Source: Flavobacteriales bacterium (GTDB taxonomy: Bacteria; Bacteroidota; Bacteroidia; Flavobacteriales_F; PHOS-HE28). From it: DNA of 64,000 nt. The notes beneath the pieces are model-generated. The model was not told where the DNA came from. It searched no databases and saw only the letters and a list, made by a program, of their open reading frames with translations. The DNA lies in assembly GCA_030584065.1 (NCBI GenBank), contig CP129489.1:380797-444796 (forward strand). Reading direction: 5' to 3'. The stretch's first letter is position 1; each line of letters opens with the position of its first letter. The translations under genes were made by a program, and so were the position numbers. Shown here piece by piece: positions 25,507 to 33,248 of the stretch.

Positions 25507-25959
25507 TCAGCCCTGCCGCATCCAGCTCAGCGCCCACACCACGAGCAGGGGCACGGGATACTGCAGGGCGTGCAGCACGGCGATGGAAACGGGCCGCAGG
25601 GCGGGAGCGGCCTGCGCGCCGAGGTGGCAGGCCAGCGCGAAGGCCGCCAGCGCTGCGAAGGCACCCAGGATGCGCGTGCGGTAGCGGTGGTCGCCGAAGC
25701 GCGTCCGTGCCAGGGCCACGGTGAGCGCGGCCGTGAGGGCCACGAAGGCCGCCGCCAGCAGCCACTTCCAAGCGGTGAGGTCGCCGGCATCCAGCCCCTC
25801 GGCCCAGCGCCTGAACCGCGAGTGCGCGTAGTTGCGGTCGCGCCGGTTCACCAGGTAGTCCAGCTGGTAGTTGAGGTTCACGAAGAAGAACTCGCGCGCC
25901 GCCCCGGCGGCCACCGCCAGCGCCAGCCACAGGGCGCTGAGGGCATCGCGGCGGTTCAT
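25507..25959 (-). CDS. exosortase F system-associated membrane protein
   Basis: 150-residue membrane protein translated just after xrtF (ATGA overlap at 25956-25959). It starts MNRRDALSALWLALAVAAGAARE with the family-like FFFVNLNYQLDYLVNRR segment, then helices LAAAFVALTAALTVAL, AFAALAAFALACHL and a C-terminal helix. A protein of this size and pattern habitually accompanies exosortase XrtF in Flavobacteriia. Its job is unknown but probably supports the sortase. Confidence 0.82.
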   Translation of the reverse strand: MNRRDALSALWLALAVAAGAAREFFFVNLNYQLDYLVNRRDRNYAHSRFRRWAEGLDAGDLTAWKWLLAAAFVALTAALTVALARTRFGDHRYRTRILGAFAALAAFALACHLGAQAAPALRPVSIAVLHALQYPVPLLVVWALSWMRQG

Positions 25960-26516
25960 GCGGCGCCGGCCTTGCGCCATCCGCTGTAGCGCTTCACCCA
26001 CACGTACCAGAGGAGGAAGACGGCGCCGTACACCACCACGTAGAAGGTGTAGTCGTGGTTGAAGTTCAGCCACTCATAGCCGAAGGTGACCACGATGCAC
26101 AGCGCGGCCACGCGGATGGCATTGAGCAGGTGGATGAGCAGGATGCCCGCGGGGATGAACCAGGCCTTGTGGCGCCAGGGCCCGGGAAAGGCGATGATGA
26201 AGATGGTGAACACCGCGAAGAGGGGGATGCCGTTGCACGGGTCGCCGATCCAGAGGTGGGTGCCGCCCTGCACGCCGATGTACCGCTCCAGGTCCACGCG
26301 CGGCTCGGGCAGCAGCTCGTAGCCCAGGGCGGTGAGCAGCAGGGAGGCCAGGGCCACCAGGCCGTTGATCACGGTGCGGTCGAGCCATCCCCACGGATGG
26401 ATGACCTGGTGGAAGAGGAGGAGCCAGCCCAAGTAGAGGCCGATGCCGACGACCAGGAAACGGGTCAGCGGGTCATTCCCGAAGCGGGAGCGGGTGCCGG
26501 GCGCGGCAACGCCCAT
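25956..26516 (-). CDS. xrtF: exosortase, XrtF type
   Basis: Integral-membrane transpeptidase or protease that recognises C-terminal sorting signals. About 186 residues from ATG 26516 (MGVAAPGTRSRFGNDPL). The catalytic triad is visible: Cys94 in GDPCNGIPLF, Arg135 in NAIRVAALC and His154 in FNHDYTF, each at a membrane edge and in the family order. The gene is flanked directly by its associated protein and by a tiny protein with a matching C-terminal signal. The locus faces a polysaccharide export operon, a link known for exosortases. Confidence 0.92.
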   Translation of the reverse strand: MGVAAPGTRSRFGNDPLTRFLVVGIGLYLGWLLLFHQVIHPWGWLDRTVINGLVALASLLLTALGYELLPEPRVDLERYIGVQGGTHLWIGDPCNGIPLFAVFTIFIIAFPGPWRHKAWFIPAGILLIHLLNAIRVAALCIVVTFGYEWLNFNHDYTFYVVVYGAVFLLWYVWVKRYSGWRKAGAA

Positions 26517-26520
26517 GGGC

Positions 26521-26736
26521 TCAGCGGCGCTTGGCGCTGGAGCGGCGCATCTGGAGGGCCTTGCCGCCGCCATACAGGAGGCCGGCGGCCACGAGGGCGC
26601 TCACGCCGCCATCGATGGGGATGCAGGGCGGAGGCCAGCACGGCGGCGGGCCGCCCACGGGCTGGGCCAGGAGGACGCCAGCGAAGGGCGCCAAGGCCAA
26701 GGCCATGGTGAGGAGCGTACGGAGTGCCTTCGACAT
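26521..26736 (-). CDS. tiny exosortase substrate with PID-CTERM-like sorting signal
   Basis: 71 residues. It has an N-terminal signal peptide (MSKALRTLLTMALALAPFAG... AQ), only about a dozen Pro/Cys-rich residues (PVGGPPPCWPPPC), the motif IPIDGG, one helix (VSALVAAGLLYGGGKAL) and a basic tail (MRRSSAKRR). This is the tripartite C-terminal sorting layout, and the PID form resembles what is annotated as PID-CTERM in Bacteroidota. It begins the operon, four nt ahead of xrtF, with a perfect promoter box upstream. Role is inferred: after cleavage the product would be a very short peptide. Confidence 0.85.
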   Translation of the reverse strand: MSKALRTLLTMALALAPFAGVLLAQPVGGPPPCWPPPCIPIDGGVSALVAAGLLYGGGKALQMRRSSAKRR

Positions 26737-26765
26737 GATCGGGATGCTGCTTTCTCGGAAGTGGC

Positions 26766-26773
26766 CAAATGTA
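26766..26773 (-). promoter_or_regulatory. promoter -7 box of the xrtF operon (TACATTTG)
   Basis: Minus-strand TACATTTG is a perfect match to TAnnTTTG, 29 nt upstream of the small substrate's ATG in the divergent intergenic region. Confidence 0.6.
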
Positions 26774-26846: not shown

Positions 26847-26854
26847 TATATTTG
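26847..26854 (+). promoter_or_regulatory. promoter -7 box of the capsule export operon (TATATTTG)
   Basis: TATATTTG is a perfect match to TAnnTTTG. It lies 67 nt upstream of the wzc-like ATG, so this transcript would have one of the longer leaders in the window, including a small GCCGCTCAGCGGC stem (about 26890-26902). Confidence 0.6.
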
Positions 26855-26921: not shown

Positions 26922-29339
26922 ATGGCAGCCCCCAAGTCCCAGCAGCGCAACAGCATCGTCGATGCCAAGGACCTGCGCTACCTGCTGCGGATCGCGTCCA
27001 AGAACTGGTACTTCGTGGCGGTGGCCCTGGTGCTCTCCGCCGTGCTGGCCTACCTCTACAGCTACAAGCTGCCCGACGTCTATGGCGCCCGCACCCAGAT
27101 CCTGCTCCGCGACCGCGAGGTGTACGACTACCAGACGCAGGTGTACAAGAGCATCGGCTATGTCGGCATCTACAGCGACATCGTCAACCAGAAGCGCGTG
27201 CTCACCTCCTACGACCTGGTGGACCGCACGCTGGACAAGCTCGACTTCGACGTCTCCTACTTCATCGTAGGGCGGTTCAAGACCACCCAGCACTACGGCA
27301 CGCTGCCCTTCACGGTGCACATGCAGGTGCTGAACCGCAGGCTCTACGACCGCCCCATCGACCTGCACATCCTCGACATCGACCACTACGAGCTGAGCTA
27401 CGACAAGGGGGGAGAAGTGGTGCGCAAGCGCTTCCGCTTCGACCGCGACGAGCACGACATCGACTACAACATCCGGGTGGAGCGCTCGCCCTACATGACG
27501 GCCAAGAACCTGACGCAGCTGGCGCAGACCGACTACCAGTTCGTGCGGCACGACCGCCAGAAGCTGGTGAACCGCCTGGTGAACTCCATCAAGGTGGAGA
27601 ACCAGGAGTTCACCACCATCCTGGAGGTGACCACCGAGGATGAGGTGGCCGAGCGCGCCAAGCTCTTCCTCGACTCCCTCTCCGCCGAGTACATCCGCTA
27701 CTCCCTCAAGAGCGAGTTCGACATCAACGAGAACACCCTCACCTACATCGACCGCCAGCTCAGCGAGGTCACCGTGATCCTGGAGCAGCACGAGCAGGAG
27801 CTGCTGGCCTACAAGGAGTCGAAGGACGTGCTCGACCTCTCGCGCGAGGAGAACCTCTACTTCAACGAGCTGGTGCAGTACGACAAGCGCCGCCGCGAGC
27901 TGGAGCTGGAGGTGCAGGCGCTCGATGCGCTGGAGAAGTACCTCCTCACGAGCCAGGACGAGAGCCTGCTGCCCCCGGCCAGCTTCATCATCAACGACGC
28001 CTTCCTGCGCCAGACGCTCTCGGGCCTCTACGACAAGCAGATGCAGCGCAACATGATGCTCTTCTCGGGCACCGTGTCCAACATGGCGATCACCGAGCTG
28101 GACAGCGCGCTGCAGCGCGACCGGGGCAACCTGCTCACCTACCTCAAGAACTCGCGCGAGGCCAAGCTGGGCCAGATGGCCGATGTGGGCGCGCAGGTGA
28201 GCGACTTCGAGGCCCTGCTGAAGCGCCTGCCGAAGAACCAGCGGGACATCCTCAACATCGAGCGGCGCCTGAACGTGAACGAGAAGATGTACATGTTCCT
28301 GCTCGAGAAGCGGTCGAACACCATCATCGCGCGGGCCGGCATCGTGCCGCAGACCAAGGTGATCGAGGCGGCCCGCTCCCTGGGCGTGGTGCGCCCTGAC
28401 AAGACCAAGATCTTCTACACCTTCATGCTCGGCGGCGTGGTGGTGGCGCTGCTCATCGCCTTCATCCGGGTGATGTTCTACGACCGCATCGAGAACGCCG
28501 ACCAGCTGAAGGAGCTCACCGCGCTGCCCGTCTACGGCGAGATCATCGCCAGCGAGAAGGCCGAGCAGAACTACGTGGTGGTGGACAGCGACCCCAAGGC
28601 CGCCATCACCGAGAGCTTCCGCACCGTGCGCACCAACCTGGAGTACATCCCGTCGCGCGACGACCGCGGCAAGGTGGTGCTGGTGACCAGCTACCGGCCC
28701 AACGAGGGCAAGACCTTCTGCTCGGTGAACCTGAGCGCCATCCTCTCCAAGGCCGGCAAGAAGGTGCTGCTGCTCGAGCTCGACCTGCACAAGCCCAAGG
28801 TGGCCACCGGCCTGGGCATGAGCAGCCCCACCGGCCTCAGCAATGTGCTGGTGGGCAAGCTGCCCTGGCGCGACGCCGTGCTGACCACCCAGTTCGAGAA
28901 CTTCTCCGTGATGCTCAGCGGCCCCACGCCGCCCAACGCCTCGGAGCTGGTGCTGAGCAAGCACCTGGAGGCCCTCTTCGAGGAGGCGCGCAGCGAGTAC
29001 GACTACATCCTGGTGGACACCCCGCCCGTGGGCCTCATCACCGATGCGCTCCTCATGATGCGCTACACGGACGCCACCCTCTTCGTGCTCAACACGCGCT
29101 TCGCGAACAAGGACCACGTGAACAATGCGCTGGAGGTGCTGGGCACCAACCCCAACCGCAACACCGGCTTCATCCTCAACGGCGTGCGGATGAAGAAGAG
29201 CAAGTACTACTACAACACCAACTACGGCTACGGCTACCGCTACGCCTACGGCTACGGCAGCGGCTACGGTTACGGCTACGGCTACGGCCGCAAGAGCCGG
29301 AAGGACAAGGGCACGCCCACCAAGAACGCCGACACGTGA
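26922..29339 (+). CDS. Wzc-like polysaccharide co-polymerase with BY-kinase domain
   Basis: 805-residue inner-membrane protein controlling chain length and export. Two membrane helices frame the periplasmic part: NWYFVAVALVLSAVLAYLY near residue 28 and FMLGGVVVALLIAFI near residue 505. Between them lie a Wzz domain and coiled coils. The cytoplasmic tyrosine-kinase domain has Walker A YRPNEGKT at about residue 590, Walker A' LLLELDLHKPK and Walker B YDYILVDTPP. The C-terminus (from about 764) is a very long Tyr/Gly tail, mostly GY dipeptides, where autophosphorylation is expected. It starts the polysaccharide operon, and its stop overlaps the GTG of wzm. Confidence 0.93.
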   Translation: MAAPKSQQRNSIVDAKDLRYLLRIASKNWYFVAVALVLSAVLAYLYSYKLPDVYGARTQILLRDREVYDYQTQVYKSIGYVGIYSDIVNQKRVLTSYDLVDRTLDKLDFDVSYFIVGRFKTTQHYGTLPFTVHMQVLNRRLYDRPIDLHILDIDHYELSYDKGGEVVRKRFRFDRDEHDIDYNIRVERSPYMTAKNLTQLAQTDYQFVRHDRQKLVNRLVNSIKVENQEFTTILEVTTEDEVAERAKLFLDSLSAEYIRYSLKSEFDINENTLTYIDRQLSEVTVILEQHEQELLAYKESKDVLDLSREENLYFNELVQYDKRRRELELEVQALDALEKYLLTSQDESLLPPASFIINDAFLRQTLSGLYDKQMQRNMMLFSGTVSNMAITELDSALQRDRGNLLTYLKNSREAKLGQMADVGAQVSDFEALLKRLPKNQRDILNIERRLNVNEKMYMFLLEKRSNTIIARAGIVPQTKVIEAARSLGVVRPDKTKIFYTFMLGGVVVALLIAFIRVMFYDRIENADQLKELTALPVYGEIIASEKAEQNYVVVDSDPKAAITESFRTVRTNLEYIPSRDDRGKVVLVTSYRPNEGKTFCSVNLSAILSKAGKKVLLLELDLHKPKVATGLGMSSPTGLSNVLVGKLPWRDAVLTTQFENFSVMLSGPTPPNASELVLSKHLEALFEEARSEYDYILVDTPPVGLITDALLMMRYTDATLFVLNTRFANKDHVNNALEVLGTNPNRNTGFILNGVRMKKSKYYYNTNYGYGYRYAYGYGSGYGYGYGYGRKSRKDKGTPTKNADT

Positions 29340-30214
29340 GGGCGGAGGCAGCGAGCGGCGCGCAGCAGCGGGAGGGCTGGGATGTGGTGGTGAGCCCCGA
29401 TCGTCCCTGGTGGCGCATCGACGTGCGCGAGCTCTGGCAGTACCGCGACCTCCTCCTGCTCCTGGTGCGGCGCGACCTGCTCGCCGTGTACAAGCAGACC
29501 CTGCTGGGGCCCGCCTGGCAGATCCTGCAGCCGCTGCTCACCTCCATCATGTTCGCGGTGGTCTTCGGCATCATGGCGCGCATGAGCCTGCCCGGCATCC
29601 CGCCGCTGCTCTTCTACATGAGCGCCGTGGTGCCCTGGGGCTTCTTCAACGGCGTGGTCACCCGCACCTCGCAGACCCTGGTGTGGAACGCGGCCCTCAT
29701 GACCAAGGTGTACTTCCCGCGGCTGGTGGCGCCGCTGGCCACCACCCTCAGCACGGGCTTCAACTTCCTGGTGCAGGTGGCGGCCTTCCTGCTCTTCGCG
29801 GTGTTCTACGCCGCCACGGGCCGCTTCGCCTGGGGCATCGGCGCGGAGGCTGTCCTGCTGCCGGTGCTCGTGCTCCTGCTGGTGGTGCTCGCCTTCGGCA
29901 TCGGGCTGCTGGTGGCGGCGCTCTCCACGCGCTACCGCGACCTCTCCTTCCTCATCGGCTTCGCGATGCAGCTGCTCATGTACATCAGCCCGGTCATCTT
30001 CCCCCTCTCGCGGGTGGAGGAGGGTTCCGCGCTGCGGCTCCTGCTCGAGCTCAATCCCATCACCCCGCTCATCGAGGGCTTCCGGGCCGCCTTCTTCGGC
30101 CTGCCCATGGAGTGGGGCAGCCTGGCCTACACCGCCGGGGTGGCCGCCGTGGTGCTGGCCATCGGCCTCATGCTCTTCCAGCGCGTGGAGCGCTCCTTCG
30201 CCGACGTCGTCTGA
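29336..30214 (+). CDS. wzm: ABC-2 polysaccharide export permease (Wzm-like)
   Basis: Membrane half of the O-antigen/capsule ABC exporter. 292 residues with the ABC-2 layout: an N-terminal cytoplasmic segment (VRELWQYRDLLLLLVRRDLLAVYKQTLLGPAW, read over its length) and six helices including LLTSIMFAVVFGIMARMSL and the C-terminal LAYTAGVAAVVLAIGLML. It starts at GTG 29336, overlapping the Wzc-like stop (GTGA). The ATP-binding partner begins 4 nt after its stop. Confidence 0.93.
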   Translation: MRAEAASGAQQREGWDVVVSPDRPWWRIDVRELWQYRDLLLLLVRRDLLAVYKQTLLGPAWQILQPLLTSIMFAVVFGIMARMSLPGIPPLLFYMSAVVPWGFFNGVVTRTSQTLVWNAALMTKVYFPRLVAPLATTLSTGFNFLVQVAAFLLFAVFYAATGRFAWGIGAEAVLLPVLVLLLVVLAFGIGLLVAALSTRYRDLSFLIGFAMQLLMYISPVIFPLSRVEEGSALRLLLELNPITPLIEGFRAAFFGLPMEWGSLAYTAGVAAVVLAIGLMLFQRVERSFADVV

Positions 30215-30217
30215 GCC

Positions 30218-31471
30218 ATGGAGCGCCTGGTGATACAAGCGGAGGACGTGCGCAAATGCTACCGGCTGGGCGTGATCGGCCGCGATGCGCTGCTGGATGA
30301 GGCCGCCGCGCTCTGGGGCCGCTTCCGCGGGCGCGCCGATGTGCGCAAGCAGCTCGACCTGGCCAGCGGCGAGCAGCGCGTGGGCGACTGGTTCTGGAGC
30401 CTGCGCGGCGTCTCCTTCGAGCTGCGGCAGGGCGAGGTGCTCGGCATCCTGGGGCGCAACGGCGCCGGCAAGAGCACGCTGCTCAAGCTCCTCTCGCGCA
30501 TCTCGCTCCCCACCTCGGGCACCATCCGCATGCGCGGCAAGGTGAGCAGCCTGCTGGAGGTGGGCACCGGCTTCCACCCCGAGCTCACGGGCCGCGAGAA
30601 CATCTTCCTCAACGGGGCCATCCTGGGCATGCGCAAGGCCGAGATCGAGCGCAAGCTCGACCAGATCATCGCCTTCAGCGGCATCGAGCACCACCTCGAT
30701 TCGCCCATCAAGCGCTACAGCAGCGGCATGAAGGTGCGCCTCGGCTTCAGCGTGGCCGCCCACCTCGACCCCGAGATCCTCATCGTGGACGAGGTGCTCG
30801 CCGTGGGCGATGCCGAGTTCCAGCGCAAGTGCCTGGGCAGCATGCGCGAGGTGGCCGACGGCGGCCGCACCATCCTCTTCGTGAGCCACAACATGGTGAG
30901 CGTGCAGAGCCTCTGCTCGCGCGTGCTCTGGCTGGAGAAGGGCATGGTGCGCCAGGAGGGGCCCACCGAGGAGGTGGTGCGCGACTACCTCAACACCTAC
31001 ACCCACCAGCACAGCCACCAGGAGTGGGAGCCGGGCCAGGGGCCGGGCACCGACGAGGTGCGGCTGCTCGCCGTGCGCGCCGTGAGCGGCCATGCCGGCG
31101 GCGCCTTCACCACCGATGAGCCCGTGCGCGTGGAGATCGAGCTGGAGAACGACGCCATCCGCGATGCCGACCTCGACATCCGGCTGCAGGTGCGCACCGG
31201 CAACGACGCCATCGCCTTCAGCAGCGACCTCTCGGCCAGCGCGCCGGCCACGCTCTGGAACCCGGGCCGCTGCAAGGTCGCCTGCATCATCCCGGCGCAC
31301 CTGCTCAATTCCAACACCTACCGCTTCCACATCGTCTTCTTCCGCCACGGCAAGGTCCTCTTCAAGGCCGAGGACGTCCTCAGCTTCGATGTGCACGAGG
31401 GCGCCCGCGAGGGGAGCACCTTCCGCAAGATGCCGGGCGCGGTGCGGCCCAACCTGCAATGGGTGCGATGA
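30218..31471 (+). CDS. wzt: ABC polysaccharide export ATP-binding protein with Wzt_C domain
   Basis: 417 residues. ABC ATPase with Walker A GRNGAGKST at about 78-86, signature YSSGMKVRLGFS (using SGM) and Walker B ILIVDEVLAVGD. The last 150 residues (from about 265, DEVRLLAVRAVSGHAGG...) form the Wzt_C beta-sandwich, which in O-antigen exporters reads the modification at the glycan's non-reducing end. The following genes encode sulfotransferases, so the terminal mark might be a sulfate (inference). The stop overlaps the next start by ATGA. Confidence 0.94.
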   Translation: MERLVIQAEDVRKCYRLGVIGRDALLDEAAALWGRFRGRADVRKQLDLASGEQRVGDWFWSLRGVSFELRQGEVLGILGRNGAGKSTLLKLLSRISLPTSGTIRMRGKVSSLLEVGTGFHPELTGRENIFLNGAILGMRKAEIERKLDQIIAFSGIEHHLDSPIKRYSSGMKVRLGFSVAAHLDPEILIVDEVLAVGDAEFQRKCLGSMREVADGGRTILFVSHNMVSVQSLCSRVLWLEKGMVRQEGPTEEVVRDYLNTYTHQHSHQEWEPGQGPGTDEVRLLAVRAVSGHAGGAFTTDEPVRVEIELENDAIRDADLDIRLQVRTGNDAIAFSSDLSASAPATLWNPGRCKVACIIPAHLLNSNTYRFHIVFFRHGKVLFKAEDVLSFDVHEGAREGSTFRKMPGAVRPNLQWVR

Positions 31472-32274
31472 TCCGGCAGGCGGCCCTGGCCCTGGCGCGG
31501 CCCTTGGAGCGCTGCATGCCCCGCATGCTGCCCCGGCTCGTCATCATCGGGGCGCAGAAGGCCGGCACCACCACGCTCTACGACCTGCTGGCGCAGCACC
31601 CGCGCATCATCCAGCCGCGGGTGAAGGAGATATCCTTCTTCAGCAACGACGAGGCCTATGCCCGTGGCATGGACCACTACCGCAGCTTCCTGCCGCCGGC
31701 GCCACTCTTCGCCCGGGGCTGCATCACCTTCGATGCGTCGCCCATGTACCTCTACCACCCGCAGGCGGCCGAGCGCATCGCGCGGCACCTGCCGGGCGCC
31801 CTGTGCCTGGCCCTGCTGCGCAACCCGGTGGAGCGCGCCTACAGCGCCTGGAACATGTACCACCAGTTCAAGGATGACCCGCGCAATGCGCACCGCTACG
31901 ACCCGCGCAGCTTCGAGGAGGCGGTAGAGGAGGAACTGACGGGAAGGGTGGTTGATCCGGGGCGGGCTTATTTGGACCGTGGCCGCTATGCACCGCAGCT
32001 GGAGCGTTACCGCCGGAGTGTGGGTGATGCGAACCTGCTGGTTATGCCCTTTGACCGATTGCGGACCGATCCGCACGGACTCGTGAACACTGTTCTCCGT
32101 AGGCTGGGCTTGCCGGAGTTGCCGCCAGACCATCCGGCCTTCGCCACACGCAGCAACGCACGAGCCTATGCGGCACCGCTCGATGCCCGGCTCAAGGAGC
32201 GCCTTCAGTCCTACTTCGCCGATGACCTCGAGCGGACGTTCCGCCTCACCGGCATCACCCTTTCCGGGTCATGA
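31468..32274 (+). CDS. sulfotransferase (PAPS-dependent) 1
   Basis: Cytosolic sulfotransferase-fold enzyme, 268 residues from the ATGA-coupled start at 31468; an ATG at 31459 would add three residues. The 5'-phosphosulfate loop is GAQKAGTTTLYDLL and the 3'-phosphate loop RNPVERAYSAW. It probably adds sulfate to sugars of the exported polymer. Notable: codon use changes part-way. Up to about 31920 nearly every codon ends in G or C; after that, A- or T-ending codons become common (GTA, GAA, GGA, GTT, GCT, TTT), as in the genes that follow. This suggests a recombination joint inside the gene. Confidence 0.88.
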   Translation: MIRQAALALARPLERCMPRMLPRLVIIGAQKAGTTTLYDLLAQHPRIIQPRVKEISFFSNDEAYARGMDHYRSFLPPAPLFARGCITFDASPMYLYHPQAAERIARHLPGALCLALLRNPVERAYSAWNMYHQFKDDPRNAHRYDPRSFEEAVEEELTGRVVDPGRAYLDRGRYAPQLERYRRSVGDANLLVMPFDRLRTDPHGLVNTVLRRLGLPELPPDHPAFATRSNARAYAAPLDARLKERLQSYFADDLERTFRLTGITLSGS

Positions 32275-33248
32275 CGGCGGAGCGTGAACAGATCGACCGG
32301 TCGGAACCGGGCAGCACGCCGGTCAGCCGCATCTTCGTCATTGGCAGTCCGCGGAGCGGCACGTCATGGCTGCACCGAATGATTGCCGAGCACCCCCGAG
32401 TCGCCTCCATCGAGGGCGAACTAACCGTATTCAGCCGGTACCTCGCACCGGTGATGAAGGCCTATGAGCGTGAGAAGGGACACATGGAGCGGGGTGAATG
32501 GAGCCAGGGGATGCCGCTACTCTACTCAGGGCAGGAGTTCGAGGTCGCTATGGCGGGTTTGGTGGCGCGCATCTACGAGCGTCTCCTCAGCCGCCGCCCA
32601 GATGCTACGCACGTGCTCGACAAGCACCCGGACTACTGCCATCACCTTCCGCTTATGGAGCGCTTCATGCCCGAAGCCCGCTACGTGCACATCATCCGTG
32701 ATGGGCGGGAGGTGGCCGTAAGCATGATCAGCGCCAAGCGGCGTCTGGGCTATGGCGCAGGCGAAGTGGAAGGCGCGGCCCGGGAATGGCAGGCTTCCGT
32801 GATGAAGGCCAGGGCCTTCGGCGCGGTCATCGGCACGCGCTACCTTGAGGTGCGCTATGAGGAGCTCGTGAGCGATACGGCTGCCGTGCTCAGCAGAGTG
32901 TTCAGCCATTTTGGGCTCTTCATCGGCGCCGAGGAAGTGGAGCGCATCGCGGCGGATTACCACATCTCGCGGAAGCAGGTGAGCCGCGGAGACACATCCT
33001 TGAATGCACTCCGGACCGAGCAGGGAGCCATTTGGCGCTCGCGGTTGAGCGTAAAGCAGCGGTTCATACTGGACCGCGTGGCCGGTGACCTGCTCTCCAC
33101 GCTGGGCTATGCGCAGCCTGGGTGGTGGGCCATGAGTATCATGCAGCGGATTGCTTTGCTGCCCTACCCCTTCCTGCTGAAAGTGAAGCGGTCCATAAGG
33201 GCGCTGCTGGCCATTTGGGGTTCACCCGCCATCCGTCGCGGCAGCTGA
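32271..33248 (+). CDS. sulfotransferase 2
   Basis: 325 residues. 5'-PSB loop GSPRSGTSWLHRMIAEHP and 3'-phosphate region IIRDGREVAVSM. The C-terminus ends in basic and hydrophobic helices (RIALLPYPFLLKVKRSIRALL), perhaps associating with the membrane. It is coupled to the first sulfotransferase by ATGA. Its codon use is less GC-skewed than the export genes. It is convergent with the third sulfotransferase, 8 nt away. The acceptor sugar is not predictable. Confidence 0.85.
   Translation: MTAEREQIDRSEPGSTPVSRIFVIGSPRSGTSWLHRMIAEHPRVASIEGELTVFSRYLAPVMKAYEREKGHMERGEWSQGMPLLYSGQEFEVAMAGLVARIYERLLSRRPDATHVLDKHPDYCHHLPLMERFMPEARYVHIIRDGREVAVSMISAKRRLGYGAGEVEGAAREWQASVMKARAFGAVIGTRYLEVRYEELVSDTAAVLSRVFSHFGLFIGAEEVERIAADYHISRKQVSRGDTSLNALRTEQGAIWRSRLSVKQRFILDRVAGDLLSTLGYAQPGWWAMSIMQRIALLPYPFLLKVKRSIRALLAIWGSPAIRRGS

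Follow-up and report, generated by a model that had tools for sequence, protein, structure and literature searches.

Exosortases have been linked to polysaccharides and biofilm (PMC1569441, PMC10936215, PMC12188702). In the PEP-CTERM/EpsH system, a membrane-embedded enzyme, presumed to be a cysteine enzyme, is paired with proteins ending in a motif, a helix and a basic tail, polysaccharide genes lie nearby, and one enzyme typically has many diverse substrates (PMC1569441). Methanolan was not abolished when EpsH was disrupted, which means that polymer synthesis itself is not necessarily the step at which an exosortase acts (PMC1569441). In Flavobacteria, the exosortase XrtF (TIGR04128) has an adjacent associated protein, and F. 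johnsoniae mutants in XrtF lose surface colonization and biofilm (PMC10936215). The acceptor of exosortase targets is not settled, and the XrtF targets in Flavobacterium are not known (PMC10936215, PMC12188702); transfer by sortases and by the archaeosortase ArtA is summarised in PMC11980579, and a transfer has been proposed for cyanobacterial CrtB (PMC12188702). In the GlyGly-CTERM/rhombosortase system, the target adjoins the enzyme when a genome has a single target (PMC3237569). Also related are three NCBIfam families, PID-CTERM, XrtX and the XrtX-associated protein (NF046080, NF046081 and NF046082, respectively). Neither PID-CTERM nor CWPPPC is named in the literature searched, which was one open-access library.

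The locus analysed here lies in a 64,000-nt stretch of a Flavobacteriales genome (the window; Table 1). It shares with the NCBIfam families the tail and the exosortase, both over cut-offs, and the gene order. With PEP-CTERM/EpsH it has in common the motif-helix-tail signal, the type of enzyme and the polysaccharide neighbours, but its enzyme serves one tiny substrate. Its target adjoins the enzyme as in single-target rhombosortase genomes, although the enzyme class is unrelated and here a short Cys-pair peptide makes up the entire mature target. The tail and enzyme families were thus already known, and models NF046080 and NF046081 describe only these two parts; what is new is the content of the mature region, a conserved two-Cys core. 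This core, the one-target pairing and the linkage with Wzc come from the present analysis.

Table 1. Features of the XrtX locus and its divergent neighbours (positions in the window).
Feature	Positions	Strand	Basis and remarks
XrtX-associated membrane protein, 150 aa	25507..25959	-	ATG 25959, stop 25507; NF046082 28.2 bits, cut-off 75; placed by position and homology only
Exosortase XrtX, 186 aa, Cys94/Arg135/His154	25956..26516	-	ATG 26516, stop 25956; NF046081 174.5 bits, cut-off 170; AF2 pLDDT 91.8
PID-CTERM mini-substrate ORF, 71 aa (stop included)	26521..26736	-	ATG 26736; NF046080 30.6 bits, cut-off 26
Sorting signal: PIDGG motif, hydrophobic helix, basic tail	26524..26619	-	NF046080 match; AF2 helix 44-70
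Predicted mature peptide QPVGGPPPCWPPPCIP, residues 25-40, C-terminal end putative	26617..26664	-	Sequence; conservation
Invariant CWPPPC, Cys33-Cys38	26623..26640 (= G000:C1:407419-407436)	-	38/38 congeners; at least 119 stretches in pattern scan
Predicted signal peptide, residues 1-24, A|Q cut	26665..26736	-	Sequence; Q-rule (PMC5837995); least conserved part of the ORF
-7 box TACATTTG of the peptide operon	26766..26773	-	28 nt ahead of ATG at 26736; box enriched in homologous loci
TATATTTG box before wzc	26847..26854	+	Ends 67 nt before the wzc ATG
Wzc-type polysaccharide tyrosine autokinase, divergent neighbour	26922..29339	+	TIGR01007 157.5 bits, cut-off 108; neighbour conserved
Wzm/Wzt-like polysaccharide ABC exporter genes	29336..31471	+	Best matches below equivalog cut-offs

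An earlier note, made from the letters of this DNA alone, had described an operon of a small exported protein, an exosortase and a membrane protein, divergent from genes of capsule export, and both claims hold. Three minus-strand genes stand head to tail behind the TACATTTG box: the 71-aa ORF, the exosortase with its three catalytic-type residues, starting 4 nt after the preceding stop, and the 150-aa membrane protein, overlapping the exosortase by 4 nt. In 70 of 112 homologous loci (7.7 expected by shuffling), a TAnnTTTG box lies no more than 90 nt from the ATG, and this, together with an ORF whose core is invariant in all congeneric loci examined (see below), indicates that the peptide operon is more than chance. 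On the opposite strand lie the polysaccharide export genes, Wzc and the Wzm/Wzt-like pair. The two ORFs after the Wzt-like gene (31459-33248) we take, judging from their sequence, to be sulfotransferase-like.

The name XrtF, given to the enzyme in the earlier note, had to be replaced. The protein scores 80 bits against TIGR04128, under the cut-off of 90, and passes that of XrtX (Table 1); moreover, no mini-ORF of the present kind was found beside the exosortase in the XrtF-like loci scanned (L066-L078), whereas one adjoins the enzyme of the window. Cys94, Arg135 and His154 are invariant in 34 aligned relatives, and none of the solved structures resembles XrtX, by sequence or by fold. Since XrtF mutants show biofilm and colonization defects, a system related to XrtX acts at the cell surface (PMC10936215). 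For the third protein, the XrtX-associated membrane protein is the sole NCBIfam match, below cut-off; with a profile built in this analysis, homologues of it were found to follow XrtX in 75 of the 98 loci that extend far enough. A second exosortase of the same genome, XrtK, is followed by an MSEP-CTERM protein (G000:C1:2155625; L009:1282-3279) and belongs to a separate system.

The mini-substrate has the sequence MSKALRTLLTMALALAPFAGVLLA-QPVGGPPPCWPPPCIPIDGG-VSALVAAGLLYGGGKALQMRRSSAKRR. Its tail passes the curated PID_CTERM cut-off, and the same model is matched by 42 of its 44 aligned relatives (E up to 0.01), while Pfam has no family covering the protein or its relatives. The predicted leader cut is followed by Q, in line with the Q-rule for Bacteroidota signal peptidase I substrates (PMC5837995); in other members, this position is often occupied by A or G, so the rule is not general among them. 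That the protein has almost no mature domain, presented in the earlier note as a peculiarity of the locus, turned out to be the rule for PID-CTERM proteins. The PID-CTERM-like sequences from the fetched loci (n = 102, a few doubtful ORFs among them) have a median length of 67 aa, and a typical member consists of a signal peptide, a QPGLPSAPSQ-like linker, APIDGG, a helix and a KKLR tail. Matches over cut-off were found in 59 of 395 Bacteroidota genomes; the proteins of other clades mostly contain no Cys, and in the clade whose genomes hold several such proteins, most of the genes lie apart from XrtX. Tails of the LPI[DES] type, looked for with a strict search, were few in XrtX loci because most Cys-less PID-CTERM genes sit far from XrtX, and the PID-CTERM family search was used instead.

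Two further kinds of PID-CTERM protein were observed. In other Bacteroidota (L083, L084, L120, L123, L170, L182 and L192), the ORF continues in frame upstream of the signal peptide into a CxxC...CxxC segment that resembles a zinc ribbon, of which NCBIfam sees only the PID tail (one member tested). The PID-CTERM protein of G122 (L205), a genome absent from those in which XrtX was matched, has a Cys pair of its own (QCDPHLDPFCEEPIPLDGG).

Conservation within the genus of the window was surveyed in 45 genomes, with the NCBIfam XrtX model, not CWPPPC, as the entry point. XrtX was matched in 40 of them, and in all 38 congeneric loci examined the adjacent ORF encodes PCWPPPCIP[IV]DGG. The earlier note had called for the core to be compared with the tail: mean pairwise identity among the 38 congeners is 1.00 for the core and 0.48 for the tail, the other values being 0.97 (PIDGG), 0.67 (helix) and 0.22 (signal peptide). 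Synonymous codons for the identical residues differ freely among these congeners, so the constraint acts on the protein or peptide.

Beyond the genus, 84,980 species genomes were scanned for CWPPPCxP[IV]DG. At least 119 stretches were found, and all titles among the matches listed (80) are of Bacteroidota. In nearly all of the 119 matches listed, the pattern lies in a small ORF with a signal peptide and a PID tail, with an XrtX homologue next to it in the same orientation, as a rule no more than 100 bp away; about ten have no XrtX in the stretch (several of these are incomplete), and in a few XrtX is farther off or on the opposite strand. Because the pattern fixes CWPPPC by design, conservation was judged from its free positions and from other searches: the residue after the second Cys is of only four kinds among the matches listed, and the second Gly of IDGG, not required by the pattern, is present in 99% of them. 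One occurrence of CWPPPC (G462/L428) was set aside as a chance match without a PID tail. In some lineages (L421, L425, L422 and L411), the CWPPPC ORF stands 1.2-1.3 kb downstream or 2.4 kb upstream of XrtX, or on the opposite strand, at distances that are apparently similar within a family.

Entry by the enzyme rather than by the peptide gave a comparable picture. An XrtX profile, built from proteins of CWPPPC loci and thus with a score threshold leaning toward such relatives, gave 141 hits in 395 genomes of the class, 63 of them with CWPPPC directly upstream on the same strand. The survey of the genus, made with the NCBIfam model, is free of this bias. The motif lies 92-315 bp upstream of 61 of the 89 strong hits (200 bits or more), under 15 anonymous family labels. 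Fifty of these loci were read: the 30 best-scoring all encode a Cys-pair peptide (24 CWPPPC and 6 variants); the remaining 20, most of them picked because CWPPPC was absent or elsewhere, include CWPPSAC, CWEPEC, CFPPPC, CANPPC and wider pairs, two Cys-less peptides and several loci with no peptide found. The usual stand-ins for CWPPPC are CFPPPC, CIPPPC, CVPPPC, CIPTC, CWEPGPC, CWPPSAC, CWPPNAC, CWEPEC, CANPPC or a wider Cys pair; in a minority of XrtX loci, the peptide is missing or contains no Cys. As far as these sequences tell, the conserved feature is two Cys enclosing a short Pro loop ahead of [IV]P[IV]DGG, and almost every ring-type genome has, beside XrtX, a predicted Sec-exported precursor of 60-90 aa with an extremely conserved mature core. 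The genome samples are draws, not censuses, and genes were called by ORF, so neighbours may be missed or misplaced.

The genome of the window contains one PID-CTERM match over cut-off, and it is encoded beside the enzyme. The same holds more widely: among 54 genomes chosen for the CWPPPC pair, 50 have a PID-CTERM match, and in 47 of the 50 it is the sole match, encoded almost without exception at the XrtX locus. In the XrtX tree, all 54 ring-type rows fall into one group of 59 (support 91/77), genomes with dispersed Cys-less PID-CTERM proteins form a separate 30-row group (100/100), and the ring label needs 4 changes, against 36.6 when shuffled. The proposal of a dedicated mini-substrate with two Cys is therefore upheld, its core being the most conserved part of the ORF and its gene the single PID-CTERM gene beside the enzyme in most ring-type genomes. 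The earlier note had reckoned absence of the tail from other proteins of the genome as evidence against this idea; the tail is indeed absent elsewhere, yet such absence fits a system of one enzyme and one target.

The locus also belongs with polysaccharide-associated exosortases, Wzc and Wzm/Wzt being adjacent here. Of the 102 loci that extend far enough upstream, 81 have a divergent gene for a Wzc-type tyrosine kinase there; it is absent from this place in the other 21, in some of which Wzc is slightly farther away. A gene that we take, from its sequence, to encode serine hydroxymethyltransferase is common downstream (62 of 88 loci) and probably reflects synteny only. The synteny with Wzc, too, could reflect shared regulation only. 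No conserved Cys able to pair with the peptide is shared in Wzc or in the associated protein.

With a core of about 16 residues nearly unchanged across many families, and polysaccharide export genes as neighbours, the peptide itself is probably the product of the system. Our main reading, to which we assign a probability of about one half, is that of a dedicated single-target exosortase whose product, a conserved Cys-pair peptide, serves the Wzc-linked polysaccharide system. Signal peptidase would remove the leader (A|Q here), Cys33 and Cys38 may close into a small disulfide ring, as their pairing suggests, and XrtX, with Cys94, Arg135 and His154, would cut at or near the PIDGG signal, freeing a Pro-rich peptide of 15-25 residues from its membrane helix. 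By analogy with sortases and ArtA (PMC11980579) and with the CrtB proposal (PMC12188702), XrtX might then hand the peptide to an acceptor, of which the polysaccharide of the neighbouring Wzc-linked system, or its lipid carrier, seems the likeliest; once attached, the peptide could be a tag, an anchor or a cross-linker of the surface polymer. The specific form of this reading, in which XrtX is a transpeptidase joining the disulfide-ringed CWPPPC peptide to the end of the exported polysaccharide or to the lipid carrier, is put forward tentatively.

The earlier note had also offered a peptide signal and a pilot regulating the exosortase. In the latter case, which we consider unlikely, the ORF would be a two-helix membrane protein assembling with or regulating XrtX or Wzc, with the Cys/Pro loop as its periplasmic tip. 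It is tightly paired with both, and AF2 predicts two helices (residues 3-23 and 44-70) with a loose short linker, a model that appears to fit a cut precursor and a two-helix protein alike and does not decide between them. However, the signal peptides are 22% identical and have cut-type ends, unlike a functional helix, and the tail is a recognised sorting signal, one also carried by dispersed proteins of the phylum whose genes are remote from XrtX. Less likely again, XrtX would be a protease, not a transferase, and the processed peptide would be released as a secreted signal or diffusible peptide. The strongest constraint in the ORF does fall on a short Pro-rich core, and a Q-type N terminus could become pyroglutamate in many members, though not where A or G takes its place; but a core nearly invariant over many families carries nothing specific to a species, and a pheromone of that sort would be unusual; moreover, the recurrent neighbours include no receptor or peptide exporter, the steady one being Wzc. 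The conservation of the core and the linkage with Wzc lead us to favour a polysaccharide-linked surface peptide over a signal or a pilot.

It is more doubtful still that the protein is an ordinary PID-CTERM protein without special meaning, whose core is conserved for no other reason than recognition by XrtX. Mini-proteins are the norm of the family, and the core directly precedes the PIDGG signal; recognition of other PID-CTERM proteins, however, works with leaders of quite another kind that have no Cys, such as QPGLPSAPSQ, and precedent predicts recognition by motif, helix and tail, the latter two being less conserved here than the core. Least probable is a lipid-anchored peptide, in which the invariant Cys two residues before the PID motif would be lipidated, as proposed for MYXO-CTERM (PMC11980579), and the helix removed by XrtX, since the two Cys persist together while the distance between them varies, as would sooner be expected of a ring, and PID-CTERM proteins of other clades are mostly Cys-less.

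If the transpeptidase reading is true, the product would be a peptide-capped surface polymer, a kind of product not described in the literature found. The predicted mature target, at 15-25 residues, is small enough to be made, labelled and followed whole by mass spectrometry, and, if it is joined to a polymer, the system would be a clean case for reading out where the cut falls and what the acceptor is. The near-invariant CWPPPC core also provides a marker of the system in uncultured Bacteroidota.
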